Made by a program: the position numbers and the translations under genes
Shown here: piece after piece, positions 2,514 to 63,278 of the stretch
Position numbering within the stretch: position 1 is the stretch's first letter
Layout: every line of letters begins with the position of its first letter
The notes under the pieces: model-generated
What the model was told of the DNA's origin: nothing
The model's input: the letters and a program-made list of their open reading frames with translations, nothing else
The model's database searches: none
DNA from: Nannobrachium achirus
Taxonomy: Eukaryota; Chordata; Actinopteri; Myctophiformes; Myctophidae
Direction of reading: 5' to 3'
Length of the DNA stretch: 64,000 bases
Assembly (NCBI GenBank): GCA_963921795.1
Contig: OY997654.1
Coordinates: 1,647,867 to 1,711,866 of the forward strand

Positions 2514-2894
2514 GGGCAGGAATTTCATGGAGGCCATGGCTGTTGTTGCCCCTCTGTTTGGCCTTGTGCCCCTCAAACCAATGGCATGACCTGAGGCCAC
2601 AGTGGCTTCTCTTTCTTGTCAATATGTTGCAGTATAGTTTATTAGCACATCATATAAAACATGTAACATTACATATACATGGGAACAAAATACAGTGCAA
2701 GGAAAGGATGAAGCCATCAGGCTTATTTGACACCTGTGTCTCTTTCTTGTCATGTACAATCCAGTGTCTTTTGTTGGCCTGTGACATGTGAATCAGTTTT
2801 GTAAAATGGCAGATCTACAAGCTCACAACGTGGTGCTTTTACATGCATGTAAAAGCCAGCCATGGCCTTCATGGCCTCCATGAAATTCCTGCCC
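2514..2894. mobile_element. TIR element GGGCAGG...CCTGCCC with a 24-bp flanking duplication
   Basis: The inverted ends (GGGCAGGAATTTCATGGAGG and onward, about 25 bp) are perfect. It is flanked on both sides by the same 24 bases, starting TACGTCACTATTG (2490-2513 and 2895-2918). It contains one arm of the palindromic module at 2808-2830. The superfamily is unknown, because the duplication is too long for hAT, Harbinger or piggyBac. Confidence 0.8.
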
Positions 2895-2918
2895 TACGTC
2901 ACTATTGTCTCACACCCA

Positions 2919-4214
2919 TTTACTTTTAGTTTTCTATGAGTAGGCCTACCTTGCATGACATTAAAATGTGACCCCTGCCAGCTTCACATGTAGGTTCTCA
3001 TCTTTTAAAATCTTCCCGTATCTATCAGTACAAGAGGAATTGGTGCAAATCCGCTGTTGGTGACACGTTTTGGAAAATATGACCATTTTTATTTCATAAG
3101 CCAGTATACTTCATGTTCCATGTTTTATGCGTAGCCATTAAGATTTCCATATGCTTTATTTCATTATCAGAGTAGGCCATAAAAAAGGGTAGGTTTTGCC
3201 ATGTAGTGTAGCGAATAACAGGAGAACAGTCCCAAGGAAACTGCAGACACAGCGACTACAGTACATCCAATTTCCGGCAACAGGTTAGATGTGGGTGAAC
3301 ATAGTAGATTAAAGCTAGAAAGGAGGAATGCAGTGTATTATGCTAATCGGTGGTTTCGTGCAGAACTAGGAAAGCTTTTCTTCATCATCTAATTGATGCT
3401 CTATTAAACTACAGTGCTATATTCTATTTTGCCTAATGAAGTCAGCCCTAAAACGCAGAAAAGTAGGATAATATCATGCGTTCTTCATTTGTAGTCTAGA
3501 CAACACGCTGGCTGGCTTGATGAATATCGTAGATGATGAGCCTTTATATAAATGAAGTGTAATTTAATAGAGAGATGCGAGGTACTTCAGAGGAACCCCT
3601 AAATATAATAAATAGAGAAAGGTTACTGGGCATTTGGAGCAAAACAGCTACGCTGGGAGGTATCTAAAAGGTTGTTTCTGAATACATTATGGGAGTTTTA
3701 TTTCTCACACCAGGCTGTGAGCGGTAAATCACAAGTCAATCTCTGAGCCCTCAGATAAGTTAGTATACTGGCTCAGAATGAACAGAATCGTTGCTGACCG
3801 CGTCTGCCTTGAATACCAATTTGCATTTTTAAAGAGCCTCTCCACTGCCAAGGCCTCTCCAGTGCAATGTCCTGAATTGTTCATGCCTGGAAAATCACCA
3901 ACCAAATGTTCTGCTCATTACGATGATCATCTGCAATCATTTGCTTTGCCCTTTTCACAATACGATGCTTTTCTCAAACCCCATCGCCTAGCCTGAGCTT
4001 TTTATTAAAGAAATGTGTTGCTCGAAATGCTCTCAACAGCATATTTGGCTCTGTATCCCTGATTCAGTCCTACTTTAGTTTTTACAGTTCTGCACTTTTT
4101 CCCCCCATCACCCATCATTTACATGTCTAGCCGGTCACTTTAAAACACATGGAGAGGCACTGCAGGACATTCTCAACTTTTTACACTTTAGTGTAACAGA
4201 GAGAAGAGTTTGCA
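2919..4214. other. Intronic sequence without recognised features
   Basis: It is AT-rich with only short open frames. The 72-codon frame at 3778-3996 shows no family resemblance. Confidence 0.5.
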
Positions 4215-4342
4215 AAGCCTTTTCCTAGAATAGCTCCTGGCACCAAGCCACCCATTGGACTATCTTTGTATGGTCCTCTGGGATTCGTCTCAGAGGCTCC
4301 CTGAGAATAATAGTTCTCCCAATGTTCTCCTGTTGTTCAGGA
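4215..4342 (-). repeat. Dispersed repeat, inverted relative to 8287-8414
   Basis: About 128 bases are nearly identical to the reverse complement of 8287-8414. Shared words include GGACTATCTTTGTATGGTCC and AATAATAGTTCTCCC. The identity of the repeat is unknown. Confidence 0.8.
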
Positions 4343-4353
4343 CATGATGCTGG

Positions 4354-4795
4354 CAGTGGCGTCAGTTCAGAAAAAAAGCTAAGGTATGGCAACATGACTG
4401 GTGTCTTGCACGCGCGTTGCTGGTGTCTTAGCAACAGGCATGACACATTTATTTTAAGAAGTACATTTTAGTTTCTTGGGCTGGAACGGTTGTTCAAGTG
4501 CAACTAAACCTGGCATGTTAGTAAACGTGCCACAATTAACAATAATGCATTGCACCTGTGCAGCTGACCTGCGGAACCTGGGAATATACCATTTTGTCAA
4601 GATGGGGAGAATACAAGTGCGGAGAATATAATTATAATACCTTGTTAGTTATTTTAATGTAATTTAACAACGTAATAACCGGCACAGATAGACAAAGAGA
4701 CATTCATGGATTTATATTTAAGCAACTTTTATTCTCTCCTCTGGACCCAGGGTATGGCAGCTGCATACCCGTGCCATACCCAATTGACGCCCCTG
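4354..4795. mobile_element. hAT family G, copy 1
   Basis: The ends CAGTGGCGTCAG and TTGACGCCCCTG are flanked by the perfect 8-bp duplication GATGCTGG (4346-4353, 4796-4803). The palindrome near the left end (AAGGTATGGCAACATGACTG) is degenerate. There is no transposase. Confidence 0.88.
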
Positions 4796-5357
4796 GATGC
4801 TGGAATAGCTACCACTGTGTGGCACAGCGAGGCGTGCTTACCCAAACAGCCTCCCGCTCCACATGTAGCCCACTTTAGCCCGGCATCATAAAGAACGGAT
4901 GAATGAGACCTCCGTTCTCTTTGCCTTGCGCACACGTTTATCCTTTCTTTTCCATAGCAAAAAGGGACAATGGTTGGTAAGCCCGCGCGGCTTTCCAGCG
5001 GCACACGTAATATGCTTTTGTAATTGCAGCCTGTGTGAAATTCTGCCATTAGCATTGGCAGCACTGTGTTACTTCACCTGAACTGCAGCAAAGAAAGGCG
5101 TCCTAAGAAACGGTCAAGGTCAGGGAAAGTAATACCATGCATGGATGGAGGAGGATCCTCCATGAAAGCAGATTTGATCACCTTGAGTGTTCACACAGGG
5201 AAACTCATAGCCCTCTTAAAAAAATCCTCAAGACTCTAAACTATTTTTTTGGCTTTTGGTGTCGTGTTTGGTGTTCAAATCATGTCCCCTATAATTCATA
5301 ATTCATATTAATAATAACGTTGCAGCATCATACAGCATGCTCTAGGAAATCAAACTG

Positions 5358-6019
5358 CAGTGGTGGAAAAAGTCACATTCACATTCTTTACTTAAGTAAA
5401 AGTATCAATGTAGAAATACTCTGTTAGGGTGCCCTCACACCAAAATACCTATGAGAGTGGAATCCGCATTCTGCCAATGCATTTCAATGAGAGTGAAGCG
5501 GTTTCATGCCAGCAGAGGATTTCTGCAAAAAACGCTCCCTTCTCATTGAAATGCATTGGCGGAACGCGGATTCCACTCTCATAGGTATTTTGGTGTGAGG
5601 GCACCCTTACAAGTAAAAGTCCAGAATTCAAAATGTACTTGAGTAAAAGTACGAAAGTGTTGGCATCAAAATGTACAAAAAAAAGGACGAAAAGTAAAAG
5701 TACAAAATGTTTGAAAATAGCAGATCCAGTTGTGAGCTTGTAATGTAGATCGGCTATTTTCAAATAGCCAGGTATAAAATAGTGGTTAAAGTGGTTAATG
5801 TATGTTCTATAATATTATAATTTATATCTGCAAAGTAACTAAGTTTTCAAATAAATGTAGTGGAGTAAAAGTACAATATTTGGATCCAAGATGCACTGTA
5901 GTGGAGTAGAAGTAAAAGTATTGGAACTTGGAAATACTCAAGTAAAGTACAAATACCCACAGTATACCTACAGTAAAGTATGGTACTTAAGTAAATGTAC
6001 TAGTTACTTTACACCACTG
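5358..6019. mobile_element. hAT family H, copy 1
   Basis: The ends CAGTGGTGGAAAAAGT and ACTTTACACCACTG are flanked by the perfect 8-bp duplication TCAAACTG (5350-5357, 6020-6027). The interior is made of ACTTAAGTAAAAGTA-type words. A degenerate palindromic module lies at about 5711-5766. Confidence 0.88.
5427..5606. mobile_element. Harbinger-like MITE nested in family H
   Basis: This 180-bp near-perfect foldback has ends GGGTGCCCTCACACC and GGTGTGAGGGCACCC and arms of over 60 bp. It is flanked by TTA on each side (5424-5426, 5607-5609), which fits the 3-bp PIF/Harbinger duplication. Confidence 0.8.
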
Positions 6020-9056: not shown

Positions 9057-9515
9057 CAGGGGTCTTCAACAGGGGATCCGGCACCCCTAGGGGGTCTTCA
9101 GAGTTACTACAGGGGGTCCCCCAAAATCTTTGTGTGATAGAAACCTTTTTTTTCTCCTTTTTTATATTGACCACTTAAGCCAAGCCAAAAAAAGCCAAGC
9201 CAAAAAATAGCAGATCTACAAGCTCACAACGCCTCGCAGCGCGAGGCGTTGTCATCAGCTATTTTCGGCAAAGAGCTCTGGTGTAGAGGGGGAAAAGAGC
9301 AGACTAAGTACAGAGTGAAAGGTCAAGTGTGTTAAGTATTGACGGTTCAAGTGGTTAAATATCTGAAAACACAAATTGACATGAATCCAAAAATTCACTG
9401 ATGATCGTGCTGTCAAACGATGAAACTATGGAATATCTGAACAGGTTATGGGGGTCCCTGCTTCATATCTCTCCCAACTAAGGGGTCCTTGGCCTGAAAA
9501 CGTTGAAGACCCCTG
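9057..9515. mobile_element. hAT family A, copy 1
   Basis: The ends CAGGGGTCTTCAACAGGGG and GTTGAAGACCCCTG are flanked by the perfect duplication GTATAGCA (9049-9056, 9516-9523). The palindromic module lies at about 9207-9268. Confidence 0.92.
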
Positions 9516-11125: not shown

Positions 11126-11550
11126 CAGGGGTCTTCAACATTTTCAGGCCAAGGACCCCTAAGTCGAGACCCATAGATACCATATAGTTTCATCGTTTGA
11201 CGGCACAATCGTCAGTGTATTTTGTATTCATGTCAATTTGAGTTTTCAGATATTTTAACCGCGTGAACCGTCAATACTTAATAAACATGATCTTTCACTC
11301 TGTATTTAGTCTGCTCTTTTTCTCCTCTACACCAAACCTCTTTGCCAAGAATAGCCGATCTACAAGCTCACAACGCCTCGCAGCACGAGGCGTTGTGAGC
11401 TTGTTCTCAGAATATGGACGCTAGGGTTCAAGAAGTGGTTCATATAAAAAAGGAGAAAAAAACGTTTCTATCACACAAGGATTTGGAGGACCCCCTGTAG
11501 TTACTCTGATGACCCCCTAGGGGTCCCGGACCCCCTGTTGAAGACCCCTG
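11126..11550. mobile_element. hAT family A, copy 2 (inverted relative to copy 1)
   Basis: The ends CAGGGGTCTTCAACATTTTC and GTTGAAGACCCCTG are flanked by CTCTACAC and CGCTACAC (7 of 8). The module at 11351-11402 has a deleted right outer arm. Confidence 0.9.
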
Positions 11551-11562
11551 CGCTACACCAAA

Positions 11563-12357: not shown

Positions 12358-12798
12358 CAGGGGTCTTCAACAGGGGGTCCGGGACCCGTAGGGGGTCCTC
12401 CAAATCTTTGTGTGATAGAAGCTTTTTTTCTCCTTTAACCACTTGAACCCTAGCGTCGATATTCGGAGAACTTTAGCCAAAAATAGCAGATCTACAAGCT
12501 CACAACGCCTCGCGCTGCGAGGCGTTGTGAGCTTGTAGATCGGCTATTTTCAGCAAAGAGGTTTGATGTAGAGGGGGAAAAGAACAAGTTCAAGTACAGA
12601 GTGAAAGGTCAAGTTTATTAAGTATTGACGGTTCAAGTGGTTAAATATCTGAAAACACAAATTGACATGAATCCAAAATAGACTGACGATTGTGCTGTCA
12701 AACGATGAAACTATATGGTATCTATGGGTTATGGGGGTCCCTGCTTCATCTCTCTCTCGACTAAGGGGTCCTTGGCCTGAAAACGTTGAAGACCCCTG
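12358..12798. mobile_element. hAT family A, copy 3
   Basis: The ends CAGGGGTCTTCAAC and GTTGAAGACCCCTG are flanked by CTCTAAAA and CTCTAAGA (7 of 8). A nearly perfect module lies at 12481-12551, with outer arms (CTTTAGCCAAAAATAGC, and GCTATTTTCAGCAAAG) that also roughly pair. Confidence 0.92.
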
Positions 12799-13262: not shown

Positions 13263-13760
13263 CAGTGTTGTTTTTGACAGCAAATTTTGATTTAGTTTTA
13301 GTCCTAGTCTTTTGAATAAAATGTCTTTTGTTTTAGTCATATTTTAGTCACCTGGGAAGTTTTAGTTTTAGTCTAATTTTAGTCGACTAAATATCATAAG
13401 ATTTTAGCTGAATAAATCTACAGTTCATTTAGTCAACTGAAATGTATTTTTGCAGGCCTTGATGGCATCGTAATGACTGATTTTGCACTTGGTTGCGTGC
13501 TGAAAATAGCCGATCTGAAGAGCTTGTAGATCTGCTATTTTCAGCACGCAACACCTGAGAGCAACCAAATTACTTTCTCCTCCACTAGTCCCTCCCTAAC
13601 GTTTTAGTCTAGTTTTTATTTTGTTGACGAAAGTGTCAATATATTTGTCTTAGTCATCACAGCTTAGTTTTCATTTCGTTTTTATTTAGTTTTCGTCAGT
13701 GAAAAAAACGCAGTCGACAAACATTTATCGTCATAGTTTTAGTCGACAAAATCAACACTG
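13263..13760. mobile_element. hAT family I, copy 1
   Basis: The ends CAGTGTTG and CAACACTG are flanked by CAGTGACG (13255-13262) and CAGTGACA (13761-13768). The interior is rich in TTAGTC/GACTAA. A module at 13500-13546 has 18-base outer arms TTGCGTGCTGAAAATAGC. It ends 73 bases before the second coding exon. Confidence 0.88.
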
Positions 13761-20030: not shown

Positions 20031-20123
20031 TGTCTGTTTTAACAAAAGCCACCTACTGTATGTTCTGCTGGTGCCAGCCTAAAAAGCACAAATCACAGGC
20101 AAATCATGTTCCTCATTGCTCAT
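20031..20123 (+). repeat. Long direct repeat, left copy, flanking family E copy 2
   Basis: It starts TGTCTGTTTTAACAAAAGCC and ends CCTCATTGCTCAT at the element boundary. It recurs at 20520-20619. Confidence 0.9.
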
Positions 20124-20518
20124 TAGGGATGGGATGATAAGCGATATTATCGTTTATCTTGATAAAAAAGACTCAATATAATCGTATTGTGGAGATTTAA
20201 TATATCGTGATATCTTCCTCCGTGCACTGGGATCAATTCACCTTTTATTTGCCGAGCTGCATATCCGGTACCACTTAAACCCTCTATGGTAAAAGGTTCT
20301 TGTAATATACGTACTTGATACAGTCTTTTTTTTTCACTCTACCAAATGTCTTTGCCAAAAAATAGGCGATCTACAAGCTCGAGCTTGTAGATCTGCAATG
20401 TTTTGGCGAATGTTCCTCCTGAGGATAATGGATTTTGATTATCGCGATAATATCGTAAACCGCGATATCCTTTGTCACAATAATCGTGATGTGAAATGGT
20501 CGTATCGTCCCATCACTA
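20124..20518. mobile_element. hAT family E, copy 2, between long direct repeats
   Basis: The ends TAGGGATGGGATGATAAGCG and CGTATCGTCCCATCACTA are intact, but there is no 8-bp duplication (TTGCTCAT against GTGTCTTT). The module at 20355-20396 has lost its GC tip, so AAGCTC joins GAGCTT directly. Confidence 0.85.
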
Positions 20519-21286: not shown

Positions 21287-21896
21287 TTACAAATGTAGCC
21301 GCTAAAGAGGAAAGGCTTGTCAAAAAGACTTCAGAGACCATATATTTGCACCACCATATGGCCCCATTATACGGCGAGAACACAATTTGTAACCTCAAAC
21401 CATCCCCTCCTCCCTTCCCGCCTTGTTTTTCTACCCATCTCATCGTTTTCTTTTATCCTCCACCACCCTCCCTCCCAAACCGACCCCGCCACGGCGATAC
21501 CGGAGGTCAAATCTCCCCGCCGTGATGAGGAATCCTTGTCAGGGCGTGCGGTTTTAGCGAGAGCAGATCAAATGCATATACGCCTCCTCGCTCGAACGAT
21601 GTCGGGGCATCCGCATGAATATGCAGGATGCATACCGTATGAAAAAGGGCCGGTAAACTATTTTGCGTGGCCTACATTTCCGGGGCCGCGGCAGCGTGCG
21701 GTCATCGCTCGATCGCCAAGCTGACCTCACGCGCTTCGTAGTGTTCGGGAGGAGAGTCCATTAAGCATGCTGTGTACAGTGCATACATTACTGTATGCTC
21801 TCTGTAATGCACCAGTGTAGTGTAGTGGGGCTGAATTATTATTTTTTTATTTGGTTTTACATAGTGATTCATGTTACCTTCCTTTGAAAGGATATA
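21287..21896. other. Intronic sequence without recognised features
   Basis: It is relatively GC-rich, with no supportable gene. Confidence 0.4.
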
Positions 21897-22145
21897 ACGC
21901 CACTGTCGGGCAGAAACCTTGTATCTCCAAGTTTCAAATTTCCACAAAGTAAAGCCCTGCTTCATCATACATGCCGTCGCACAAAAGTAGTGAAAACAGC
22001 CGATCTACAAGCACACAACGCCTCGCGGTGCGAGGCGTTGTGTGCTTGTAGATCGTCTGTTTTCACTAGTTTATATCATTTTTAAAATGATAAATGCAAA
22101 ATAAGCGGTTTTGGACATACAAGGTTTTCACCCGACAACGACGAT
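21897..22145. mobile_element. Foldback family D, copy 2
   Basis: CCACTGTCGGGCAGAAACC opens it, and CACCCGACAACGACGA closes it next to TA. The module at 21990-22063 has long arms with tip CAACGCCTCGC, and the outer arms GTGAAAACAGC and its complement also pair. Confidence 0.82.
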
Positions 22146-23115
22146 AAGACGAATGTCTTGGAGAAGGAGTCTAGCAGAAAGCTAAATCTCTCCGTAATAT
22201 CCATTTATTTATGAGGGTGAGGGATGGGCCTTTCACCCGAGCCGAGCCACCCATGGTGTGATGATGGCGAGGCTGCTTACCGTGACTCATAGTGATGACC
22301 ATAGCCGGCAGGGGAAGAGACCATCTTGTTAAAAGGCTAACTATGATAATAAAATGAAATTGGATGCCAGTGTCCGAATGGTAGCGGCTGATTGTGTGAC
22401 ATATATATCTATTTTAATTTTAATGTATTTATTTATTCATTCTCATTCATTACTTATTTATTACCAAGTCATCGCATCTGTAATCACCACCATGCCTCGC
22501 TGCCATAAGTATTTTGTTGGGTCGAGATTTTACTTGAATCAGACGTTGGCAGTTTGTGTCTCCAGTTCCTGAAGGACGGCCAAATGTCAAATCTGTACCT
22601 ATCAGAGGAGCCACTGGCAAGGGTCCCAATGTGTGGGCCCTAAATTGACTCAAACGCTTTTTTCCGAGGGGGAAACGAAGAGTGCTGCACTAGTGTGGTG
22701 GGAGACAAACAACGAATTCGACCAAAATTACATGCTCTGATAAGTACAGGAAAAAAAGAATCAAACAAACGCGTCACACACCTGTAGCATTCTTCAAGGA
22801 AACCTGACAAGATAATGACTCAATTGCCAGCAGCTGTGCCTTGAAGAATGCTCCCCCCCCCCACCCCCTATCTACTATTCAGAGATTTGTATTTTACTGT
22901 TAAGTGTAGCCTCGCACACTGATAAAGGCTACAGCTTAGAGTGCTCAGAGCTCGATGATATTGTAACTACAATCTCCCTATATCTGTCTGTCTCTCTATA
23001 TTTTCAGGAGACGGCACTGAACCCACCACACTATGGCACACTCTGTGGCACAGGTACAGCCCGCTCCCACAGGATTAAAATCAATCTCTAGCTCCCACTA
23101 TACCAAGAGAGAGAG
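22146..23115. other. Intronic sequence, one hairpin and a C-run
   Basis: A 14-bp stem (AGCATTCTTCAAGG at 22788-22801 with CCTTGAAGAATGCT at 22837-22850) encloses a loop of about 35 bases. A C-run follows at 22852-22867. No gene was seen. Confidence 0.5.
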
Positions 23116-25101: not shown

Positions 25102-25492
25102 CAGTGTTTCTCAACCTTTTTTCTGCATGGGCACACTTTTCATGTCCCAAGAATCATGGGCACTCCAACATAATACGGGGGTGTAAATATCGTCACTGTC
25201 GGGAAGAAACCTTGTATCTCCAAGTTTCAAATTTGTACGTTTCTTCGCAAAGTAAAGCCCTGCTTCATCATACAAGGCTGTTGCACAACAGTAGTGAAAA
25301 CGGCCGATCTACAAGCACACAACGCCTCGCACCGCGAGGCGTTGTGTGCTTGTAGATCGGCCGTTTTCACTAGTTTAAATCATTTTTAAAATGATAAATA
25401 CAATCCTGGCTTTCAAGCAGTTTCAAGGGGCACACTCGACCCTTCTCAGGGGCACACCAAAGGTCCCCAGGCACAGTCGTTGAGAAACACTG
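25102..25492. mobile_element. hAT family K, carrying a family D core
   Basis: The ends CAGTGTTTCTCAACC and GTTGAGAAACACTG are flanked by the perfect duplication CTCTACTG (25094-25101, 25493-25500). From about 25194 to 25394 the interior is family D (GTCGGGAAGAAACCTTGTAT, and the module at about 25300-25370) with one D end missing. Confidence 0.92.
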
Positions 25493-25838: not shown

Positions 25839-26268
25839 CAGTGGTTCTCAACCTGTGGTTCGGAAACCCCCAGAGAGGGTCCCCAGATTATATTTGGGGG
25901 GGTCCCCAGATGATTAACCTAATGTGCAACACTGTTTTTGCACTCAACAGTAAACAAACCGACATAAAGTTTAAGTGTACAGCACATTTCTAAAGTGACA
26001 ATTTAAGGACTTACTATCTCTGAAATGACAAATTAAACATTGGCCAAACTGTCAAATATTAGAGGCAGAAATTGTGAAAGTAGCAGATCTACACGCTCAC
26101 AACGCCTCGCGTTGCGAGGCGTTGTGAGCATGTTGATCTGCTATTTTCACAATAGAACCGTGCTATAAAAATGTAATTCCTCACCGCTTAGTGCTTGTCA
26201 GGGTGGGCGGCCCAGTGCAAATATGATTATTTTTGGGGGTCGCGGCCTGAAAAGGTTGAGAACCACTG
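25839..26268. mobile_element. hAT family B, copy 1
   Basis: The ends CAGTGGTTCTCAACCTGTGG and AAAAGGTTGAGAACCACTG are intact, but no clear target duplication remains. The module at 26079-26147 has outer arms TTGTGAAAGTAGC and GCTATTTTCACAA. Confidence 0.85.
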
Positions 26269-26712
26269 CACTATAGACATCCAGGCGTTTGCACTGGAGG
26301 AGGTATATTCATGTAATTATGGTATCCAATGTATTCACTACTGCGTAGGAGCCACAGTATGAACTATACATAGCATCATAGCACTGTGTAATGATTAGAC
26401 TTGCCTGATCCTTGGGGAGAAAAAAAAAAAAAAGAAAAAAGAAAAAAAAAAGACGTACATGGGGAGAGCTTTTATCCATGTAAGGGAGACAGAGAACCTC
26501 ACTTTTATTCAATGTGAAGTACGATATGCACCTTACATGATCTTTGTAATTGACTTTGATTTGCCAGTGTGTGGAGAAAACTGTAAATGTTTTGTTTATG
26601 TATGTGTGTGTGCTTCTGAAATTTATTAAAGTCTTTTGCATTGTATATGGCACATTTCCATGACTCTTCTTGTTCATCAGGGAAAACGTAGTTCAGCCTT
26701 ATTAGCCTTTAA

Positions 26713-28374: not shown

Positions 28375-28378
28375 TTAA

Positions 28379-28970: not shown

Positions 28971-28974
28971 TTAA

Positions 28975-31316: not shown

Positions 31317-31320
31317 CTAG

Positions 31321-36344: not shown

Positions 36345-36604
36345 TCGTCGTTGTCGGGTGGAAACCTTGCGTGTCCAAAACCGTTTGTTTTGTATTTATC
36401 ATTTTGAAAATGATTTAAACTAGTGAAAACAGCCGATCTACAAGCACGCAACGCCTCGTGCCGCGAGGCGTTGTGTGCTTGTAGATCTGCTGTTTTCACT
36501 ACTTTTGTGCGACGGCCTTGTGCGATGATGCAGGGCTTTACTTTGCGAAAAAAAAAATACAAATTTGAAAATTGGAGATACGAGGTTTCTGCCTGACCGC
36601 GACA
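36345..36604. mobile_element. Foldback family D, copy 5
   Basis: TCGTCGTTGTCGGGTGGAAA and GTTTCTGCCTGACCGCGACA form the ends. The module lies at 36423-36498. Confidence 0.85.
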
Positions 36605-37832: not shown

Positions 37833-37911
37833 GCATGTTCCCAGTGAGGGGAGTACAGTGAAAGTGCATATTCCCTGCATACATTATCTATCTTCCACGC
37901 ATACTATAGAC
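37833..37911 (+). repeat. Long direct repeat, left copy, flanking family F copy 1
   Basis: GCATGTTCCCAGTGAGG through CACGCATACTATAGAC. It recurs at 38316-38402 on the far side. Confidence 0.88.
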
Positions 37912-38315
37912 TAGGGCATTCACGAATAGTGATTTTTAGTATTAGAATTATTCGAATAGTCAAATATTCGACAGGACTGGCCAGGCTGTCAAATATTAAG
38001 TCAGCAAGAGGCGAACATTGTGAAAATAGCCTATTTTCACAATATTTATCTGCGGAACCGAGTCACATTAAATGTAATACCTACAATTCCAAGTGCTTGT
38101 CAGGGTGGGGGTCCCCTGTTCAAATATGTTTATTTTGGGGGTCACGGCCTTAAAAGGTTTGGTTCTTATGACTTCCTATCCAAGCTTTATAAACTATAGA
38201 CTTTTTTAAAGAGAAAACAATAAAAAAATAAAAATAAGCAAATATTCGACTTCGGTGAACAACGTCGAATAGTGACTTTGATATTCGAATATTCTAATAT
38301 TTGGTGAATGCCCTA
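37912..38315. mobile_element. hAT family F, copy 1, between long direct repeats
   Basis: The ends TAGGGCATTCACGAATAG and TTTGGTGAATGCCCTA are intact, without an 8-bp duplication. The middle (about 37980-38160) is the right half of family B. The module is collapsed: ATTGTGAAAATAGC is joined directly to CTATTTTCACAAT. Confidence 0.85.
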
Positions 38316-41322: not shown

Positions 41323-41461
41323 ACGGTGGTTGTTGCATTCATCCCCCTAGACAATGTCCATTAAGGGCTCAGTGGGACCAACTGGATGGATAGATGGATT
41401 CTATTATTGGTCAATGTTTGTGATCCACTAAATGATGGATGTCGTCCTTAACCCATCCAGA

Positions 41462-42044
41462 ACGGGTACACATTATTGTGTATCATTATTTTATGCTTTA
41501 ACTATTGAAAAATAGCAGATATACAAGCTCACAGCGCGGCACCGAGTGCTGCGCTGCAAGCTTGTAGATCTGCTATTTTTGAAAAATTGTGAACATTAGA
41601 ATTTTGACCCGATTCTATAAGTGTCTTTTGAATCCTTCTAAGGTTTTTTGAAAACCCTATGTTTCTATGTCAGCAATCTGGCCAGCCATCGTCAAAGAAA
41701 AGGTCCTTTTCACTTAACTGGAGCTCAGTTAGTCTGTTCTTGAGAGACTACTGTGTCAGTGGTTCTCAAACCTTTTCCTGTGAAGGACCCCCAGAAAGAT
41801 ATGTATTTGGCCACGGACCCCCATCTCAAAATATTTAGTTCCAGGGACCCCCCCAGAAGCAAAATTTGAGTTACAAACGTTCGCTTTGAAAAATACACAT
41901 ATTCAAAGATTTGCACACATTTTCACGACTTTTTCAAAAATAGCAGATCTACAAGCAGCGCGGCACTCGGTGCCGCGCTGTGAGCTTGTATATCTGCTAT
42001 TTTTCAATAGTTAAAGCGGTCAATAATCCTAGGCCTAAATGGGT
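41462..42044 (+). mobile_element. Family C (piggyBac-like), copy 6
   Basis: TTAA lies at 41458-41461 and 42045-42048. Modules lie at 41510-41580 and 41938-42003, the second with a shortened left arm. Confidence 0.9.
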
Positions 42045-42305
42045 TTAACGCCGGCAGACTTTTTTGGAGCCGTGTTGAATATCCCCTGTTCCAGTGCGAT
42101 AGTAGGCCTGTAAGATAACCCCTCCCCGATGGCAGTAAACGCTCTGTCACTCAGACAAATATGGCAGATGAATACCCAGCGTGATACGGTGGTGTGTTTG
42201 TCATGCTCTGAGTAATGGGTTTATAGCACCGAGGATCCGGGGACTGAAAGGGACAAGAGTTCTCCACACCCCGAGTTAAGAGTCTTAAGAGGGATCGTAT
42301 TGTAG

Positions 42306-42839
42306 TAGGGCATTCACCAAATATTCGAACATTCGACTATTCGAATATCAAAGTCACTATTCGACGTTGTTCACCGAAGTCGAATATTCGCTTATTTTTA
42401 TTTTTTTATTGTTTCCTCTTTATAAAATATTTAGTTTATAAAGCTTGGTTAGATAGGAAGTCATAAGAATGAGTTGTCAATGCCCCTGGTGGATGAATTT
42501 GTTAATGCTCTATACCAGGGGTTCTCAAACCTTTTTAGGCTGTGACCCCCAAAATAAACATATTTGAACTGGGGACCCCCATCCTGACAAGCACTTGGAA
42601 TTGTAGGTATTACATTTAATGTGACTCGGTTCCGCAGATAAATATTGTAAAAATAGCAGATCTACATGCTCACAACGCCTCGCAACGCGAGGCGTTGTGA
42701 GCATGTAGATTTTTCACAATGTTCGCCTGTTGCTGCTTAATATTTGACAGTTTGGCCAGTCCTGTCGAATATTTGACTATTCGAATACTTTGAGGTCGAA
42801 TAATTCGAATACTAAAAATCACTATTCGTGAATGCCCTA
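42306..42839. mobile_element. hAT family F, copy 2
   Basis: TAGGGCATTCACCAAATATT and the matching CACTATTCGTGAATGCCCTA are flanked by TATTGTAG and CATTGTAG (7 of 8). An internal CAGGGGTTCTCAAACC end comes from family B. A full module lies at 42652-42720, with its right outer arm cut short. Confidence 0.88.
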
Positions 42840-45223: not shown

Positions 45224-45660
45224 CAGGGGTCTTCAACAGGGGGTCCTGGACCACTAGGGGGTCCTCAGAGTTACTACAGGGGGTCCTTCAAATCCTTGTG
45301 TGATAGAAACCTTTATGCTCCTTTTTTATATGAACCACTTGACGTCCATATTCTGAGAACTTTAACCAAAAATAGCAGATCTACGCTGCGAGGCGTTGTG
45401 AGCCTGTAGATCGTCTATTTTCTGAAAAGAGGTCTGGTGTAGAGGGGGGAAAAGAGCAGACTAAGCACAGAGTGAAAGGTCAAGTTTATTAAGCAGGCCT
45501 ATTGACTTAATAAGTGGTTAAATATCTGAAACACAAATTGACATGGAATCCAAAATACACTGACAATTGTGCTGTCAAACTATATGGAATGTGGGGGTCC
45601 CCGCTTCATCTCTCTCTCAGCTATAAGGGGTCCTTAGCCTGAAAACGTTGAAGACCCCTG
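45224..45660. mobile_element. hAT family A, copy 4
   Basis: CAGGGGTCTTCAACAGGGGG and GTTGAAGACCCCTG are flanked by the perfect duplication TTCTACTG (45216-45223, 45661-45668). The module at 45372-45421 has lost most of its left arm. Confidence 0.92.
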
Positions 45661-47860: not shown

Positions 47861-47998
47861 TCTATGTTGGATAGTTACTTTCCACCACTGGCTGTAACTA
47901 TACTTAATGGGCAGCGTTCTCAGGTGGGAAGCCTACTGGTTGGTTGAGAGGGCCTGTTCAGTAACTGGAGAAGTTAGCATGGATCTCTGTGCTGGATA

Positions 47999-48593
47999 CA
48001 GGGGTGTAATAACCAAATCCTGGGCCCTGGGTACAAGGATTCACTGCGGGGCCCCCCATGAATGTTCTTCATTGGGGGAGGGGTTTAACCCATTTAGACT
48101 GGGAATGCATTATTACGCATTATTTTGTGCTTTAGCTATTAAAATGAAAATAGGAGATTTACAAGCTCACAGCGCTGCACCGAGTGCCGCGCTGAGCTTC
48201 TAGATCTGCTATTTTTGCTATTCTTTGAATATTTCAAATCCTTCTAAGGTTTTTTGAAAAACCTATGTTTCTATATCAGTCTGCTCAAACTTTTTCATGT
48301 GAAGGACCCTCAAAATGATATGTATTTGGCCATGGACCCCCATCTCAAAATAATTTGTTCCAGGGCCCCCCCAGAAGCAAGAAATGTTTGCTTAAAAAAA
48401 TACATATATTCAGATTTGCACACATTTTCACAACTTTTCAAAAATAGCAGATCTACAAGCTCGCATAGCTCGGTGCCGTGCTTTGAGCTTGTATATTTGC
48501 TATTTTTCAATAGTTAAAGCACAAAATAATTAAGGCCCCTCCACATTGGGCCCTAGTAACTCAGTCCCACTCCCCCCCCTTGTGACGCCCCTG
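47999..48593 (-). mobile_element. hAT family L, copy 1, carrying a family C core
   Basis: CAGGGGTGTAATA and TTGTGACGCCCCTG are flanked by the perfect duplication GCTGGATA (47991-47998, 48594-48601). Inside, TTTAACCCATTTAGAC at 48086 is a family C terminus. Two modules lie at about 48150-48212 and 48442-48508. Confidence 0.9.
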
Positions 48594-50866: not shown

Positions 50867-51477
50867 ACGGTTGCTAACCACTTAAATCCGGTTTATCTGT
50901 CATTATGACAATGTCGCACAATCTCACAGATAGTATTTTTGAAACATTTTGGAAATTTCAAAGATTTCTTAAAATGTTCACCTATTTTGACATGCCCAAA
51001 ATTGGGATGCCAGGTTGAAAGTGGTTACAAAAAAAAATATTATTATTAATATTAAATAAGACATAAAAAGATATGGCCTGCATGCATGTGTGCTATGGTG
51101 GAAAAAGTTACGATGATTCCTGCTCAAGATAAATATGGACCAGAGCCTGTGGCAGGGCTGGTCAAGGTCATGTTTAGGCCAAGAGGCAAATTGGAGCACC
51201 AAGCCATGAGTGAATTAGCTTGTTTGTGGGAAGTGAACCTGGTGACTGACTCCAGGCAGGAACCTCCATAGAAAGATCCATATTTGGTCTTTGTAGTTGT
51301 TGAATGCCCTACTTCGTCATGTAAGAGTGTCACATAAAAGTAGAGAATATAGATCTACAAGCAATGTGTTTTGAGCTTGTAGATCTGCTATTTTTGTTTT
51401 AAAGTGAGTGGATACGTCTGTCTGTGCAGGGTTAAGTTGAACCAATGGAAAGTATCAACAAGAACTTGTGACTAAAT
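50867..51477. other. Intronic sequence with a solitary module
   Basis: The module at 51347-51397 (TAGATCTACAAGC, then GAGCTTGTAGATCTGCTATT) has no recognised element ends around it. No gene was seen. Confidence 0.5.
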
Positions 51478-52033
51478 CAGGGACATGCTGGGCCCCTGAT
51501 TCAGCCCGGGAAAAAGAGTTGTAGAGGCCCTCACTGCGCACTATAGAGTGAGACCTCTCTCAATAGCGCTGCTGCTACTCAAAGATTTCCCATTTCAGAT
51601 CATGACAAGTGACAAGCCAGTGGGCTAATTACATGAGTTATATTTTGTCGTTGTCGAGTGGAAACCTTGCATGTACAAAACCGTTTGTTTTGTGTTAATT
51701 ATTAAAAAAAAATATTTAAAATAGTGAAAAGATCCGATCTACAAGCACACAACGCCTCGCACCGCGAGGCGTTGTGTGCTTGTAGATCTGCTGTTTTCAC
51801 TACTTTTGTGCGACGACGTGTATGATGAAGCAGGGCTTTGCTTTGCGAAAAAATGTATACATTTGAAACTTGGAGATACAAGGTTTCTGCCCGACAGTAA
51901 CGATTTACTTTGTTGGCCGACCCAGCCCCCAAAATGGAATGAAGGCCGACATTTTATTTTTAATTGGACCGGCCGGGAATGAACCGGCCGTTCGGGAGTT
52001 GTCCCGCTTTTCCCAATGGCCAGCACGTCCCTG
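51478..52033. mobile_element. hAT family M, copy 2, carrying a family D element
   Basis: CAGGGACATGCTGGGCCCC and GGCCAGCACGTCCCTG form the ends. The flanks do not match (GACTAAAT, ATTGGATC). Family D is at the same internal place as in copy 1 (about 51648-51903), with a full module at 51723-51798. Confidence 0.85.
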
Positions 52034-54508: not shown

Positions 54509-55002
54509 TAGGGATGGGGCGATACGCGATATTATCGTTTATCGTGATACAAAGCACTCGCGATAATCGTATCGTGGAGATTTAATTCATTGTGATATCG
54601 TCCTCCGTCATGCACTGGGATCAATTGACCTTTTATTTGCAGAGCTGCATATCCGGTACCATTTAAACCCTCTATTATTGGTAAAAGGTACTTATAATAT
54701 ACGTACTTGATACAGTTTTTTCACTCTCTAACAAATGTCTTTGCCAAAAAAATGCCGATCTACAAGCTCGTACTTGATACATTTTTTTTCATTCTCTAAC
54801 AAATCTCTTAGCCAAAATATTGCCGATCTACAAGCTCACAACGTGTCGCAATGCGACGCTTTGTGAGCTTGTAGATCTGCAATTTTTTGGCAAATGCTCC
54901 GCCCCAGGATAATGGATTTTGATTATCGCGATAATATCGTAAATCACGATTTCTTTTGTCACAATAATCGTGATATGACATTTTCACATCGTCCCATCCC
55001 TA
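54509..55002. mobile_element. hAT family E, copy 3, with an internal duplication
   Basis: TAGGGATGGGGCGATACGCG and CATCGTCCCATCCCTA are flanked by the perfect duplication ACTGGAGG (54501-54508, 55003-55010). The stretch from GTACTTGATACA to GATCTACAAGCTC occurs twice (about 54703-54769 and 54770-54838), and the jump falls inside the module. Confidence 0.92.
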
Positions 55003-55990: not shown

Positions 55991-56598
55991 CAGGGGCGTC
56001 ACACTGGGGGGGGGGGGGGGGGGGGGAGTGAGACTGAGTTACTAGGGCCCAAGGTTGGAGGGGCCTTAATCGTTTTATACTTTAGCTATTGAAAAATACC
56101 AGATATACAAGCTCACAGCGCGGCACCGAGTGCCGCGCTGCGAGCTTGTAGATCTGCTATTTTTGAAAAGATGTGAAAATGTGTGCAAATACTTGAATAT
56201 AATTATGTATTTTCTATTTTTTAAGCGAAAAACTAAACTAAACTTCTGGGGGGTCCCTGAAACTAAATGTTTTGAGATGGGGGTCCGTGGCCAAATACAT
56301 ATCATTTTGGGGGTCCTTCACATGAAAATGTTTGAGCACCACTGACATAGAAACATAGGTTAAAACAAAAAAAACAACAACCTTAGAACGATTTAGAAGA
56401 CACTTATAGAATCAAAAATATTCAAAGACCTGCACACATTTTCAAGATTTTTCAAAAATAGCAGCTGTGAGCTTGTATATCTGCTATTTGTCAATGGTTA
56501 AAGCACAAAATAATGCATCATAGTGCATTCCCATTCACGGGGGGCCCCCACAGTGAATCCTTGTACCCAGGGCCCCAGAATTTGGTGTGACACCCCTG
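55991..56598 (+). mobile_element. hAT family L, copy 2, carrying a family C core
   Basis: CAGGGGCGTCACACT and GTGTGACACCCCTG are flanked by the perfect duplication TCTACTAT (55983-55990, 56599-56606). It contains a run of over 20 G (56006-56027), one complete family C-type module (56095-56160) and a second reduced to its right arm (56455-56490). Confidence 0.92.
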
Positions 56599-56606
56599 TC
56601 TACTAT

Positions 56607-56939
56607 ACCCTTCTCACTCGCTCCTTTGTCCTCCAACCCTCCCTCCATTTCTCTGCCTCACTTCCTACAGTGTGAAGTGAAATGCCCATAGACATTTATA
56701 GTCACATTAATATGAGCAAAAGGATGCGGGGTAATAAATCGCTTTTCTTTCTTCTTCCCGCGTGCTAAAAGAAACGGTGATAAAAATAAGTAGTACCACG
56801 CGTACATTGTTGTGCACTTTAGCGGGCTTGAAGTGGAAGAAAGCTGTGTTTGAAGTTTTGAATTGGTCTTTGGGGAGCCTCACCTATTGGGAATGTTAAC
56901 CTTTAACCATCCCAGCTATATAAAGCAAAGAGAGTTCCA
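56607..56939. other. Intronic sequence without recognised features
   Basis: No gene or repeat was seen. Confidence 0.4.
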
Positions 56940-56943
56940 TTAA

Positions 56944-57536
56944 CCCGTTTAGGCCGAGAATTATTGAATGCTTTAGCCAGTGGAAAAATAGCAGATATAC
57001 AAGCTCACAGCGCGGCACCGAGTGCCGCGCTGCGAGCTTGTAGATCTGCTATTTTTGAAAAAAGTCGTGAAAATGTGTGCAAATCTTTGAATATATGTTT
57101 TTTTAAAGTGAACGTTTGTAACTCAAATTTTGCTTCTGGGTGGTCCCTGGAACTAGATATTTTGAGATACGGGTCCGTGGCCAAAATACATATCATTTTG
57201 GGGGTCCTTCACATGAAAAGGTTTGTGAACCACTGACATAGTCTCTCAAGAACAGACTAACTGAGCTCCATTTAAGTGAAAAGGACCTTTTCTTTGACGA
57301 TGGCTGGCCAGATTGCTGACATAGAAACATACGTTTTTCAAAAAACCTTAGAAAGGATTCAAAAGACACTTATAGAATCGGGTCAAAATTCGAATTTTCA
57401 CGATTCAAAAATAGCAGATCTACAAGCTCGCAGCGCGGCACTCGGTGCCGCGCTGTGAGCTTGTATATCTGCTATTTTTCAATAGTTAAAGCATAAAATA
57501 ATGATAAAACAATAATATGTACCCGTTCTGGATGGG
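56944..57536 (-). mobile_element. Family C (piggyBac-like), copy 9
   Basis: TTAA lies at 56940-56943 and 57537-57540. Modules lie at 56986-57056 and 57410-57480, both nearly complete. Confidence 0.92.
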
Positions 57537-57540
57537 TTAA

Positions 57541-59169: not shown

Positions 59170-59644
59170 CACCTCCGAAATGATTTAAATTCTGACTATA
59201 GCCTATATGAGGGTGCCACCAATGAGAGAAAATAGCACCGTAAGTGATAGAAGTAAGCCAATCACAATCCAGTATTTGAACACGTGACTAGAAAAAGTGG
59301 TAGAAACACTGTTTGTGCAACTTCCTTGGGTCCTCCGGCTACATCTCATGATTTACACACCCCTGAGTAGGCCACCTAGCCTTGCGGAGATCTGTGCTCT
59401 GCAGAGCGCCACTAATCTCTCCTTTCTCCTCTGTGTTGTTGTTAGTTGTTTGATGACCTTTATTGATCCTTTTTTCCCTGAGTATGATTTGTTTGACAGT
59501 GTGAAACGCATGCAGCAGCCAAATGCAGTGCGACGGGGGCCTGCGCGGCTGCATTCCTGCCCACGGTGCCTGTCTGAGTCAGTGCGGTATAGTCGTGTAA
59601 CGCGGCTCACCTTCCCCCCATGGCCCTGCTCTCCACTCCTCAGC
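59170..59644. other. Intronic sequence without recognised features
   Basis: The 133-codon open frame at 59297-59698 runs into a repeat and has no recognisable domain. Confidence 0.4.
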
Positions 59645-59648
59645 TTAA

Positions 59649-60251
59649 AGCATTCAGAACGGGTACACATTTTGTGTTATCATTGTTTTATGCTTTAGCT
59701 ATTGAAAAATAGCAGATATACAAGCAGATATACAAGCAGATACACAGCGCGGCACCGAGTGCCGCGCTGCGAGCTTGTAGATCTGCTATTTTTGAGAAAT
59801 CGTGAAAATTAGAATTTTGACCCGATTCTATCTAAGTGTCTTTTGAATCCTTCTAAGACTTTTTGAAAAACCTATGTTTCTATGTCAGCAATCTGGCCAG
59901 CCATCGTCAAAGAAAAGCTTCTTTTCACTTAACTGGAGCTCAGTTAGTCTGTTCTTGAGAGACTACTATGTCAGTGGTTCCCAAACCTTTTCATGTGAAG
60001 GACCCCCAAAATGCTATTTATTTGGCCACGGACCCCCATCTCAAAATATTCCGTTCCAGGGACCACCCAGAAGCAAAATTTGAGTTACACACTAATAATA
60101 ATATTCAAAGATTTGCACACATTTTCATGACTTTTTCAAAAAATAGCAGATCTACAAGCTCGCAGCGCGGCACTCGTTGCCGCGCTGTGAGCTTGTATAT
60201 CTGCTATTTTTCACTGGTTAAAGCATTCAATCATTTCTAGGCCTAAATGGG
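59649..60251 (+). mobile_element. Family C (piggyBac-like), copy 10
   Basis: TTAA lies at 59645-59648 and 60252-60255. The first module (59707-59793) has its left arm stuttered: CAGATATACAAG occurs in near-triplicate. The second module lies at 60143-60213. Confidence 0.9.
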
Positions 60252-60384
60252 TTAAAGCATTTGCATGTTACCGCATTTAAAGCAATTAGGACCTGACCAG
60301 TCATCTTGACAGGTGGCCTCCATCTCCCTAAATGCACGTGCTGGGCCTCTGCAATAACTCTTGTGTTGGATGTCACATTGTTGC

Positions 60385-60960
60385 CAGGGACGGGACGATA
60401 TGAAAATGTCATATCACGATTATTGTGACAAAAGAAAACGCGATTTACGATGTTATTGCGATGATCAAAATCCATTATCCGGGGGCGGGAACACATTTTG
60501 CCAAAAAATAGCCGATCTACGCGACGCGTTGTGAGCTTGTAGATCGGCTATTTATTGGCAAAGACATTTGATAGAGAGTGAAAAAAAGACTGTATCAAGT
60601 ATGTATATTATAAGTACCTTTTACCAGTTATAGAGGGTTTATGTGCAGCTTGGCAAATAACAATGTGTCGCGTTGCGACGCGTTGCGACGCGTTGTGAGC
60701 TTGTAGATCGGCTATTTTTTGGCAAAGACATTTGATTGAGAGTGAAAAAAAAGACTGTATCAAGTACGTATATTATAAGTACATTTTACCAGTTATAGAG
60801 GGTTTATGTGGTACCGGATATGCAGCTTGGCAAATACAAGGTGAATTGATCCCAGTGCATGACGGAGGACGATATCGCGATAAATTAAATCTCCACGATA
60901 CAATTATTGTGAGTGTTTTTTATCAAGACAAACGATAATATCACGTATCGCCCATCCCTA
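60385..60960. mobile_element. hAT family E, copy 4, with an internal duplication
   Basis: CAGGGACGGGACGATATG and CGTATCGCCCATCCCTA are flanked by the perfect duplication ATTGTTGC (60377-60384, 60961-60968). Two modules (60505-60552, 60662-60720) bracket a duplicated stretch with AGAGTGAAAAAAAGACTGTA. The second module's tip, GTCGCGTTGCGACGCGTTGC, is stuttered. Confidence 0.92.
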
Positions 60961-60968
60961 ATTGTTGC

Positions 60969-62093
60969 TTTATTTTAGCTCTTACTTCATTTTCCGATAC
61001 CCCCGCCCACCTCGGTTGTAGGATAATTAGGGCAATTAATTCACGGGGATACTCTATACACGGCATATGCCTTTCTTCAGATTGCATGCAGAGGAGGGTC
61101 CGTCACTCGATCCCGAGAGTTGACCCAATTTAAAGAACGCTGCGTTCCCAGTCTCCCTCCCACCTCCTGCTGTGTGCCAAACCCCCCATAGTAATGCTTG
61201 CCAAAGGAAGCGGCCCCTTAATGAAATAGTAATTGTGAGTCACATAGCATCAGTATGTTTTTCTTTTTTCCTTTTACTTTGTTCCTTTTCCGTTCCGTTC
61301 CAGCGATACAGAAGAGAGCGTTCTAAAGCGTTCCGGGTGTGTAATTCCATTAATACTCAGTATTGCACCTCTATGCATCATTGCTCGCTTTCACATTAGC
61401 CTTGATTGTTTTCGCTAAGTCTATAGTTGCCATCTGGTCAGATTTTGCCACCCTTTTATATTGAATAATATCTCCATTGTGCCAGGAAAGAACCTACCCT
61501 GCAAACCTAAGCTTTACATTTTGTCAGGGCTCACTGTGAGTGTGTTGTATGGTACATATGCAACACAACAACATGGTATGCTAAAATCATCGGCACAGAA
61601 CTGCCACAGCTTCATACAATTTAGTCTATACCACACACTTCAAGAAAAAGACTCAGAACATCATAAAAGATAGCAGCCATCCCGCCCATTCCCTTTTCTC
61701 ACTCCTCCCATCCAAAAAACGTTACCAGAGCATCAAATCGCACACCACTCGTTTCAGTAATAGTTTTTTTTGCCCAGGCAGTCAGGTTGCTCAACGAAAG
61801 GATGAAAGTGAAACATAGGTAACATGTGCACTGCACGCATGTTTAAACTGTACACTGTTACACTGTATGGTATTGTCGTTGTTGGGACTTGTCTTGTGTG
61901 GCCTGCATGGTATGTGGGTCCACACTCTTGTCGGTCACTGTGACCATGTCTTTGTGTAATAAGGCTGAGATGCTCCTGGCACAAGCATTTCATTGTATCT
62001 GTACCTGTATGGATGTGTGTGACAATAAAACTGAACCTGAACCTGAACCTACAGTGCTGCCAACATACTATGAGGAAGATAAGTAACACAACT
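60969..62093. other. Intronic sequence without recognised features
   Basis: No gene was seen. GAACCT is repeated at about 62033-62050. This is one of the longer stretches without an intact element. Confidence 0.4.
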
Positions 62094-62101
62094 ATTGTGT
62101 G

Positions 62102-62596
62102 CAAGGCCGTCACAAGTTGGTGGGGGAAAGTGGGACTTAGTTACTAGGGCCCAAGGTGGAGGGGCCTGGAATTATTTTATACTTTGGCTATTGAAAAATA
62201 GCAGATATACAAGCTCGCAGCGCAGCACTCGGCTTGTAGATCTGCTATTTTTGAAACGTCGTGAAAATGTGTGCAGGTCTTTGCATATAAGTATTTTTTT
62301 AAGCGAACGTTTCTAACTCAAATTTTGCTTCTGTGGAGGTCCCTGGAACTAAATGTTTTGGGATGGGGGTCCGTGGCCAAATACATATCATTTTGGGGGT
62401 CCTTCACGTGAAAAAGTTTGAGCACCACTGACACAGAAACATGGATTTTTCAAAAGAATTTAAATATTCAAAGAATATTTTCACTATTTTTCGAAAAAAT
62501 AGCAGATCTACAAGCTCGCCGCGCTGTGAGCTTGTGTATCTGCTATTTTTCAATAGTTAAAGTACCCAGGGCCTAGAATTAGGTGCGACACCCCTG
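62102..62596 (+). mobile_element. hAT family L, copy 3, carrying a family C core
   Basis: CAAGGCCGTCACAAG and GTGCGACACCCCTG are flanked by the perfect duplication ATTGTGTG (62094-62101, 62597-62604). Two modules with shortened tips lie at 62197-62252 and 62498-62552. Confidence 0.9.
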
Positions 62597-62604
62597 ATTG
62601 TGTG

Positions 62605-63216
62605 GTGACTGACCATACCGTTACAACTGCAACTGAGAGACAATGTGGGGAATATTTAAGATCGATACATCATTTATTTCCCCGGGAGTCCATAATGGGC
62701 TCACAAGCGCATGCTCCATTACTGGACACAAGGGAACTACACTGCTGACCAATCTCCTCTAATGAAAACAAATGTACTGGCAAGGAGCGGGTAAGAAATA
62801 CACTATGCCACATAGTTCAAGTCCTACTGTCACTGGGTAAAAAGACTGTGTGGCTTATGCAGAATAGCAAGCTTAGCAAGTCAAGTGTGTCATTAAGTGT
62901 GGGTTGGGAGTGAGACACAGAGCCAAAAGGTGTCCTAATGGCAGATTTCTGCTGAAATTGAAACCCAGATTGCAGTCAGTTCACAGGCGTCACAGCTCAT
63001 CGAGAAGCTGAAGTTTGACTGGCCGAATGAGACTATGCGGTAAAGATGCACCAAGATGCATTAAAACAAAAAAGAAACTTTTATATCAGTCGATCAATTA
63101 CTTTTTTCTGATTTTACATAATGTATATTTTATTTTATATTTTATTCATGTTGTCATATCCACCTGTTTCCGCGAGAATTTGCTGTAACATTATTTGCGG
63201 GACACTTCCGGTTAGA
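62605..63216. other. Intronic sequence without recognised features
   Basis: No gene or intact repeat was seen. Confidence 0.4.
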
Positions 63217-63278
63217 CATACAAGCTCACGTCGCATTGCAGATGCAACCGTTGTGAGCTTGTAGATCAGCTGCCTGCA
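63217..63278. repeat. Palindromic module outside any recognised element
   Basis: ACATACAAGCTCACGTCGCA and GTTGTGAGCTTGTAGATCAG are separated by a short GC-balanced centre. No terminal repeats were found around it. Confidence 0.65.

Follow-up and report, generated by a model that had tools for sequence, protein, structure and literature searches.

A covarying palindromic module inside miniature transposons with unrelated ends in the Nannobrachium achirus genome

Introduction

The analyses presented here concern a short palindromic module that recurs inside non-autonomous DNA transposons of the fish Nannobrachium achirus, both in a 64 kb window (GenBank assembly GCA_963921795.1, contig OY997654.1, positions 1,647,867 to 1,711,866, forward strand) and in other stretches of the same 1.66 Gb genome. 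Coordinates prefixed with w, and those in the feature lists, are positions within this window, and L-numbers denote the other stretches. The closest precedent is provided by the CMITEs of the coral Acropora, families of miniature inverted-repeat transposable elements (MITEs) that have different terminal inverted repeats (TIRs) and a common internal region more conserved than their ends (Wang et al., 2010; PMC2872659). According to the available part of that paper, these elements are about 100 bp long, all have TTAA duplications, share a 75-base common stretch and number an estimated 1,600 or so copies in A. millepora; CMITE-IN is a new element assembled by MITE insertion, and the origin of the internal region is left unexplained there. 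The module described here is likewise conserved across families with different TIRs. Unlike the coral region as so described, it is a covarying palindrome, it has more than one type of carrier, its carriers mostly have 8 bp target-site duplications (TSDs), and it is present in 180,178 paired copies. A search of 358 kb with the printed 60 bp CMITE consensus gave no match at E≤1.

Among fish elements, the Angel MITEs of zebrafish were reportedly described by Izsvak et al. in 1999. They show intrastrand pairing, and nascent-strand replication with stem–loop release has been proposed for their amplification (review, PMC12628747). Compared by description, Angel is a fish MITE with a hairpin like that of the module, and one palindrome across families is not described in the available text of the review. 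In Atlantic cod, gadMor-hAT-1784 is a palindromic hAT-derived MITE with internal inverted repeats and with nested and tandem copies, found at inversion breakpoints (PMC12368964); again by description, it is a teleost hAT-type MITE like the carriers analysed here, and the part of the source at hand describes no module in other families. Drosophila Foldback4 combines inverted-repeat modules variably (PMC2955051), and in the portion available these are long terminal palindromes of one family, whereas here a short internal unit occurs across families. A search by topic and with five module oligonucleotides found no description of the module in the open literature; most subscription papers and the repeat databases being outside its scope, the module may have been described there. 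The module is a larger, cross-family version of the shared interior known from corals, built on a covarying hairpin; it is genuine, very abundant and unusual, and its spread by itself is not supported.

Results

Anatomy and copy number of the module

Within the window, 85 matches to the arm GCMGATMTACAAGC (at most one mismatch) were found, where dinucleotide shuffles average 0.08; grouped, they make 51 separate sites, in good agreement with the 'about fifty' recurrences given by an earlier sequence-only reading of this DNA. Two-arm modules number 36 at up to two mismatches per arm and 33 with a stricter pattern. The module is not confined to the window: exact copies of GCNGATNTACAAGC number 250,320 + 250,619 genome-wide (500,939 together; reversed control, 12 + 9), and paired hairpins of the form TACAAGC-N16..46-GCTTGTA number 180,178 (control, 194). 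The window holds 69 exact arms compared with 19 predicted from the genome rate (3.6 times enriched), and 20 other 10 kb stretches, picked by round coordinates, hold 87 compared with 60 expected.

The unit, about 80 bp long, is palindromic DNA with arms of about 38 nt, a loop of usually 3 nt and a sharp outer border, AAAATA. Across 135 outer-flank clusters (the two sides of one element being counted apart), positions −6 to −1 agree at 79–88 % and positions from −7 outward at no more than 53 %; the core letters are part of the search pattern and hence conserved by construction, and the six letters AAAATA lie outside it. The presence of a discrete palindromic unit common to elements with unrelated ends, as first proposed, is borne out by this border and by the differing TIRs described below. 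The 14 nt core arms are spaced by exactly 31 nt in 54 of 92 modules, by more in 8 and by less in the remaining 30, which have a shortened centre; for the first 100 hairpins listed from the start of sequence C1 the corresponding numbers are 56, 14 and 30. Folded as single-stranded DNA, five of five modules tested gave the hairpin (−34 to −49 kcal/mol, z −10 to −17). At the cut-off used, 144 modules fall into 36 families. There are also more tip classes than the two originally recognized, among them an imperfect class, N, which by a motif rule that we set ourselves makes up 11 of the 100 listed C1 hairpins.

Pairing into the flanks had also been noticed and is real, yet it is short, extending on average about 4 nt outside AAAATA, and to −10, in a 20-module alignment, which brings the paired arm to about 38 nt. 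A flank-pairing test (40 positions × 20 contexts, one context lumping 59 of the 92 modules) shows an excess at −6 to −9 and −12, a weaker one at −3 and isolated signals at −22 and −24. The longest pairing, 11 nt past AAAATA, is an extreme case:

13490..13550, − strand: shortened module with the longest flank pairing (GTTGCGTGCTG; extreme case at 13522)

What the sequence-only reading saw as local flank copied in inverted orientation around the module is mostly short.

Small structures were also seen at and around the arms. At the border of the unit there is a small second hairpin, formed by the end of the arm and an inverse copy of it lying on the outer side: GCTATTTTCAAATAGC in family M (e.g. 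L010:9009) and CTATT-GAAA-AATAGC in family C (e.g. w31369). Tandem duplications around module arms at w54702–54837 (68 bp), L008:2111–2150 (23 bp) and w59712–59737 (12 bp) indicate that the palindrome gains repeats too. At L013:2700–3560 a variant module (arm TATTCAAAAATACAGATCTACAAGC, tip TTAATTGG on one strand) is repeated, possibly as a local module-derived array.

Most carriers are hAT-type elements

Carriers were sought in 264 kb by a scan blind to the module, for 12 bp TIRs adjoining exact 8 bp duplications, the only duplication length looked for. It gave 35 pairs, 13 of which lack a CA or TA start (two being pieces of family C elements) and were set aside. A CA or TA start is a hallmark of hAT elements, and the other 22 pairs, which are hAT-like in this respect, include 13 that hold module arms; outside the window, 7 of 11 do so. 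Nine kinds of hAT-type end with the module come from the scan and, with TAGGGCTGTC and CAGTGGTTCTCAACC, make eleven. The feature that marks hAT-type membership, an 8 bp TSD adjoining the TIR, is present in carriers A, B, F and M and in other YAG-ended types; for family F the exact duplication was seen only in a centre-deleted copy, L003:4347. The ends of the carriers thus differ, as the sequence-only reading held, and its further statement that target-site lengths differ probably applies to family C (TTAA), D and class N and fails for most carriers with definable ends, in which the length is 8 bp. In 19 of 19 carriers measured, 181–662 bp long, the module centre lies at 0.32–0.69 of carrier length; these carriers were picked by us, their module centres were entered by hand and family C was left out. 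The hAT-type carriers A, B, F and M are represented in the window by the following elements.

12358..12798, + strand: family A hAT-type MITE (CAGGGGTCTTCAAC), TSD CTCTAAAA/CTCTAAGA, module 12486–12544
9057..9515, + strand: family A copy, exact 8 bp TSD GTATAGCA
11126..11551, − strand: family A copy
45224..45660, + strand: family A copy, module centre-deleted, TSD TTCTACTG; the genome search used the left flank of this copy as query
54509..55002, + strand: family B hAT-type MITE (TAGGGATGGGCGATA), 8 bp TSD ACTGGAGG, module 54822–54880
60386..60962, − strand: family B copy, TSD GCAACAAT by eye, module partly duplicated
20122..20518, + strand: family B copy with centre-deleted module
25839..26283, + strand: family F hAT-type MITE (CAGTGGTTCTCAACC), module 26083–26141; right end approximate
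5358..6019, + strand: family M hAT-type element (CAGTGGTGGAAAAAGT), 8 bp TSD TCAAACTG, decayed module near 5727–5780

A hAT-like family without the module (CAGTGGCGTCAGTTC...) has four copies in the window (w4354–4795, w46026–46525, w55348–55874 and w6775–7252). By eye it has an internal inverted repeat around CACGCGCG, and it offers a natural comparison for the module-bearing carriers.

Carriers with other ends, and sites read as solitary

Family C has the ends CCCAT..ATGGG, and its nine copies have TTAA on both sides (four), CTAG on both sides (one) or imperfect flanks (four). Starting with CCCA, it does not have the piggyBac terminal motif CC[C/T]T; the piggyBac-like AmiPB4, listed in a table within the available part of the coral paper, also starts with CCCAT (PMC2872659). 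The copies listed for the window, and the two modules of one of them, are as follows.

31318..31896, − strand: family C element, ends CCCATTYAG...CTAAATGGG, two inverted modules about 400 bp apart, CTAG on both sides
31369..31427, + strand: complete module core in that element (arm, 31 nt spacer, arm)
31766..31824, − strand: second module of the same element, in mirror orientation
28372..28979, + strand: family C copy, TTAA on both sides
32018..32660, + strand: family C copy, TTAA on both sides
41447..42050, + strand: family C copy, TTAA on the left only
56935..57540, − strand: family C copy, TTAA on both sides
59642..60258, + strand: family C copy, TTAA on both sides

Family D (about 255 bp) and class N (about 180 bp) are small families whose ends are unlike those of the hAT-type carriers and of C.

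21892..22151, + strand: family D element (TCGTCGTTGTCGGG...), module 21999–22057
33041..33310, − strand: family D element
36344..36603, − strand: family D element
63156..63323, + strand: class N element (about 170 bp, covering site 63217) with imperfect-tip module; relative L003:5826–6006, 71 % identical

The four sites that had been taken for modules standing alone fared unevenly. That at 63217 lies in the class N element just listed, and that at 51349 groups with L006:3351 and by eye resembles an old D; at 7788 the module is degenerate and no convincing TIR pair was found, and the site at 11563–11607 lies just outside a family A copy.

Passage of the module between families

The transfer that is visible consists of the nesting of whole or partial module-bearing elements and of one interior with two kinds of end. 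A whole D is nested in the hAT-type elements CAGGGACGTGCTGG (w34966, w51475, L008:4082) and CAGGGGTTCCCAAA (L010:7456, L013:7909), and part of a D lies inside the hAT-type element CAGTGTTTCTCAAC (w25102). Carrier TAGGGCATTCACGA contains the centre and right end of an F-like element. The C interior, with both modules, was found under TTAA-type and under hAT-type ends; between two C copies and w55991, w47998 and w62102 the longest aligned stretch is 270–293 columns, at 80–85 % identity. In 5 of the 11 hAT-type end kinds, therefore, the module is present because a module-bearing element or interior sits there (D in three, the F-like piece in one, the C interior in one), so that several of what had been counted as separate families are one module-bearing element nested in another. 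Apart from the module, the carriers A, B, C, D, F, M, N, TAGGGCTGTC and CAGGCACGTGCA were seen to have little in common; in A and B slightly more flank (CTTTGCCAAAAAATAGC) than the core is shared. The composite elements of the window are these.

55991..56598, + strand: C-like interior, hAT-type ends CAGGGGCGTCACAC...GTGTGACACCCCTG, 8 bp TSD TCTACTAT
47998..48593, + strand: C-like interior, hAT-type ends (CAGGGGTGTAATAACC...GACGCCCCTG)
62102..62596, + strand: C-like interior, hAT-like ends, right end by eye
42306..42839, − strand: TAGGGCATTCACGA carrier with centre and right end of an F-like element
37850..38315, + strand: TAGGGCATTCACGA carrier with centre-deleted palindrome (ATTGTGAAAATAG / CCTATTTTCACAAT)
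34966..35526, + strand: hAT-type CAGGGACGTGCTGG element with D (35130–35377) nested
51475..52033, + strand: second CAGGGACGTGCTGG carrier copy, D at the same place
25102..25492, + strand: hAT-type CAGTGTTTCTCAAC element, TSD CTCTACTG, partial D inside

Symmetry is kept by compensatory change

As the sequence of the module diverges, its palindromic symmetry is maintained via compensatory changes. In the 20-module alignment (rows picked by us, all with the 31 nt spacer, including three D, two B, two C-like and two TAGGGCTGTC modules), 26 of 42 pairs changed on both sides, compared with 13–18 in slid controls, and the covariation score was 0.248 compared with 0.130 when shuffled (0/500 as high) and 0.05–0.09 in slid controls; the structure tested had been read beforehand from such sequences. 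Among 48 distinct C1 hairpins with 31 nt spacing, six of 14 tip pairs (1, 4, 6, 10, 11 and 13) show covariation that none of 1000 shuffles reaches; for pairs 7 and 9 it is reached by 12/1000 shuffles, and the other six are not clear.

Module-less copies are mostly products of deletion

Flanks with the module removed were compared with 358 kb (the window and L001–L050 without L021), and no clean pair of empty and filled sites was present among the matches listed (133 modules found, those with flanks below 100 bases skipped). The arm-less matches listed (L045, w37912, L005:4971 and L003:4347) are all four deletions at the palindrome. With the left flank of family A as query (40 of 2,621 candidates scored), 30 loci, including the window's own copy, each have in that position a module, what is left of one, or a deletion; the anchor interval is readable in 25 of 35 family A copies, and the eleven shortened modules among these 25 are all different. 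Of the module-less copies opened, those of B, F and the TAGGGCATTC carrier are centre deletions, and those of A are deletion remnants. The joined-flank search for family M, with 40 of 2,863 candidates scored, gave 10 matches that span the join widely. Seven of these ten module-less M copies keep module letters (two being neighbours on C6 with the same join). L053 and L056 have a common clean join that matches the product of deletion between AAATAGC direct repeats, one at the arm end and the other in the right flank, and L057 has no module letters and a join of its own. The L053/L056-type junction has 30 exact copies compared with 2,723 for the filled left junction of M, a rough ratio since the two junction patterns differ in length. 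No true pre-insertion site was proved among the module-less copies opened.

Direct repeats around the unit, in 24 contexts, have a summed length of 48 compared with 44.1 in shuffles (284/1000 as high), and repeats of at least 4 nt occur in 3 of the 24 contexts compared with 1.8; there is no target duplication signal around the module, and so no support from this side for self-mobility. In the sampled copies of A and M, and in the sampled families generally, the module is ancestral and is lost with age. With no clean pair of sites within families, no excess of direct repeats and module-less copies that are mostly deletion remnants, the proposal of the sequence-only reading that the unit spreads by itself is not upheld.

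Discussion

We suggest, with a probability of roughly 0.55, that the module is an old, discrete palindrome that MITE carriers multiply as a passenger cassette and that changes carriers through nesting and interior exchange. It would reside inside non-autonomous DNA transposons, with no demonstrable ends of its own, and be copied whenever its carrier is mobilized by the carrier's transposase, of hAT type for most carriers and of TTAA type for C. New families are reached when an element with the module inserts into a different one and the latter goes on to multiply (as seen for D and the F-like piece), or when one interior acquires another pair of ends (as seen for C), and old copies would lose the module via centre deletion. 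For the first entry into the primary carriers, filler capture at the birth of each MITE, through template switching in gap repair, would be the most economical route. The hairpin may help its carrier, either by extrusion that brings the ends together or by snap-back in replication; that so many elements with TIRs and TSDs hold the module suggests as much.

Several observations weigh against this explanation. Since exact arms are 3.6 times as dense in the window as in the genome on average, counts taken there are unrepresentative. Nine of the 22 hAT-like elements are without the module, including L003:4347, a centre-deleted relative of F. No autonomous parent of the carriers was readable from the matches to Dimer_Tnp_hAT (PF05699), of which 150 were scored among 1,653 candidates in the genome and whose ends are not readable, and no founding capture was seen into A, B, C, D, F, M, N, TAGGGCTGTC or CAGGCACGTGCA. 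The benefit of the hairpin to its carrier is one that we infer. Family C has two modules, each close to one end, a misfit with a central hairpin. Finally, in 12 of 20 modules there is no pairing at position 21/75 of the palindrome (GC[A/C]GATC), which is explained neither by a pure need for a hairpin nor by hairpin-templated repair.

The explanation that we rate next, while still holding it unlikely, is that the module is a cis site for a host or transposon protein, for example a dimer, gained repeatedly as its bearers multiply better, the palindrome being two half-sites. The A/C position just mentioned changes in one arm independently of the other, as it might in a degenerate half-site; the inner TACAAGC pairs vary in few of the 20 modules, whereas in the outer arms and tips changes come in pairs. 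A host factor in particular is favoured by the occurrence of the module in carriers of hAT type, TTAA type and other types. This same covariation of tip and outer arms, however, goes beyond the need of a short half-site, and no known motif was identified.

Spread of the module by itself appears doubtful. A nascent strand would switch at AAAATAGC to a module elsewhere, copy to the tip, snap back to copy itself and then return to its first template, leaving a module and a short inverted flank. Such a route is consistent with the sharp AAAATA border in the 135 flank clusters, with the excess flank pairing at −6 to −9 and −12 and with the covarying outer pairs; the AAATAGC of the arm end repeated in the right flank of family M, an 83 bp unit bordered by AGAA at either end in two copies of family F, and the module-less M copy L057 with its own join may be read in the same way. 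It is set against flanking direct repeats that are not above shuffled levels, the want of a proved clean empty site and a module that is ancestral in the sampled families. Somewhat more doubtful still is a hairpin parasitic on transposons, which would enter via microhomology template switching and snap-back, borrow any transposase and have its palindrome kept by copying, that is, a replicator with neither protein nor ends.

Descent of all carriers from one module-bearing ancestor, their ends having diverged, is very improbable. Eleven end kinds are hAT-like with 8 bp target duplications, and A and B share the CTTTGCCAAAAAATAGC flank beyond the core; however, outside the module the ends and interiors of A, B, F, M and TAGGGCTGTC are by eye not alignable, C appears to use TTAA, D and N have other ends, and the nested copies represent independent joining. 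That the hairpin acts as RNA, as a structured transcript or a source of small RNA, is the least credible reading, as the strong predicted stem with its covariation stands against the lack of any Rfam family at gathering score within the window and against many one-sided changes at CpG-rich tip positions, which fit DNA decay.

One palindrome in 180,178 paired copies under many ends, together with observed cases of nesting and of a single interior with two kinds of end, shows that non-coding transposons can evolve by modules, and on a large scale. Whether a hairpin drives the success of MITEs, the idea raised for Angel, is testable here, since this one genome has families that contain the module and families that lack it, as well as both intact and centre-deleted copies. 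Repeat annotation in which families are divided or merged according to internal similarity may label such elements wrongly.

Other features of the sequences

Two protocadherin reading frames (Pfam Cadherin, Cadherin_2, Protocadherin), which we take to be PCDH11-like, lie at w1742–2350 and w13690–16521 on the + strand; if both belong to one gene as exons, the modules that lie between them are in introns. Long foldbacks, inverted repeats over much of their length, with TA flanks and no module arms were seen at w23144–23689 and w18280–18738 in a noisy TA/TTAA scan. At L011:1171–3520 there is a long AT-rich array of GTGTAATTA-like units, which gave many inverted pairs in the TIR scan.

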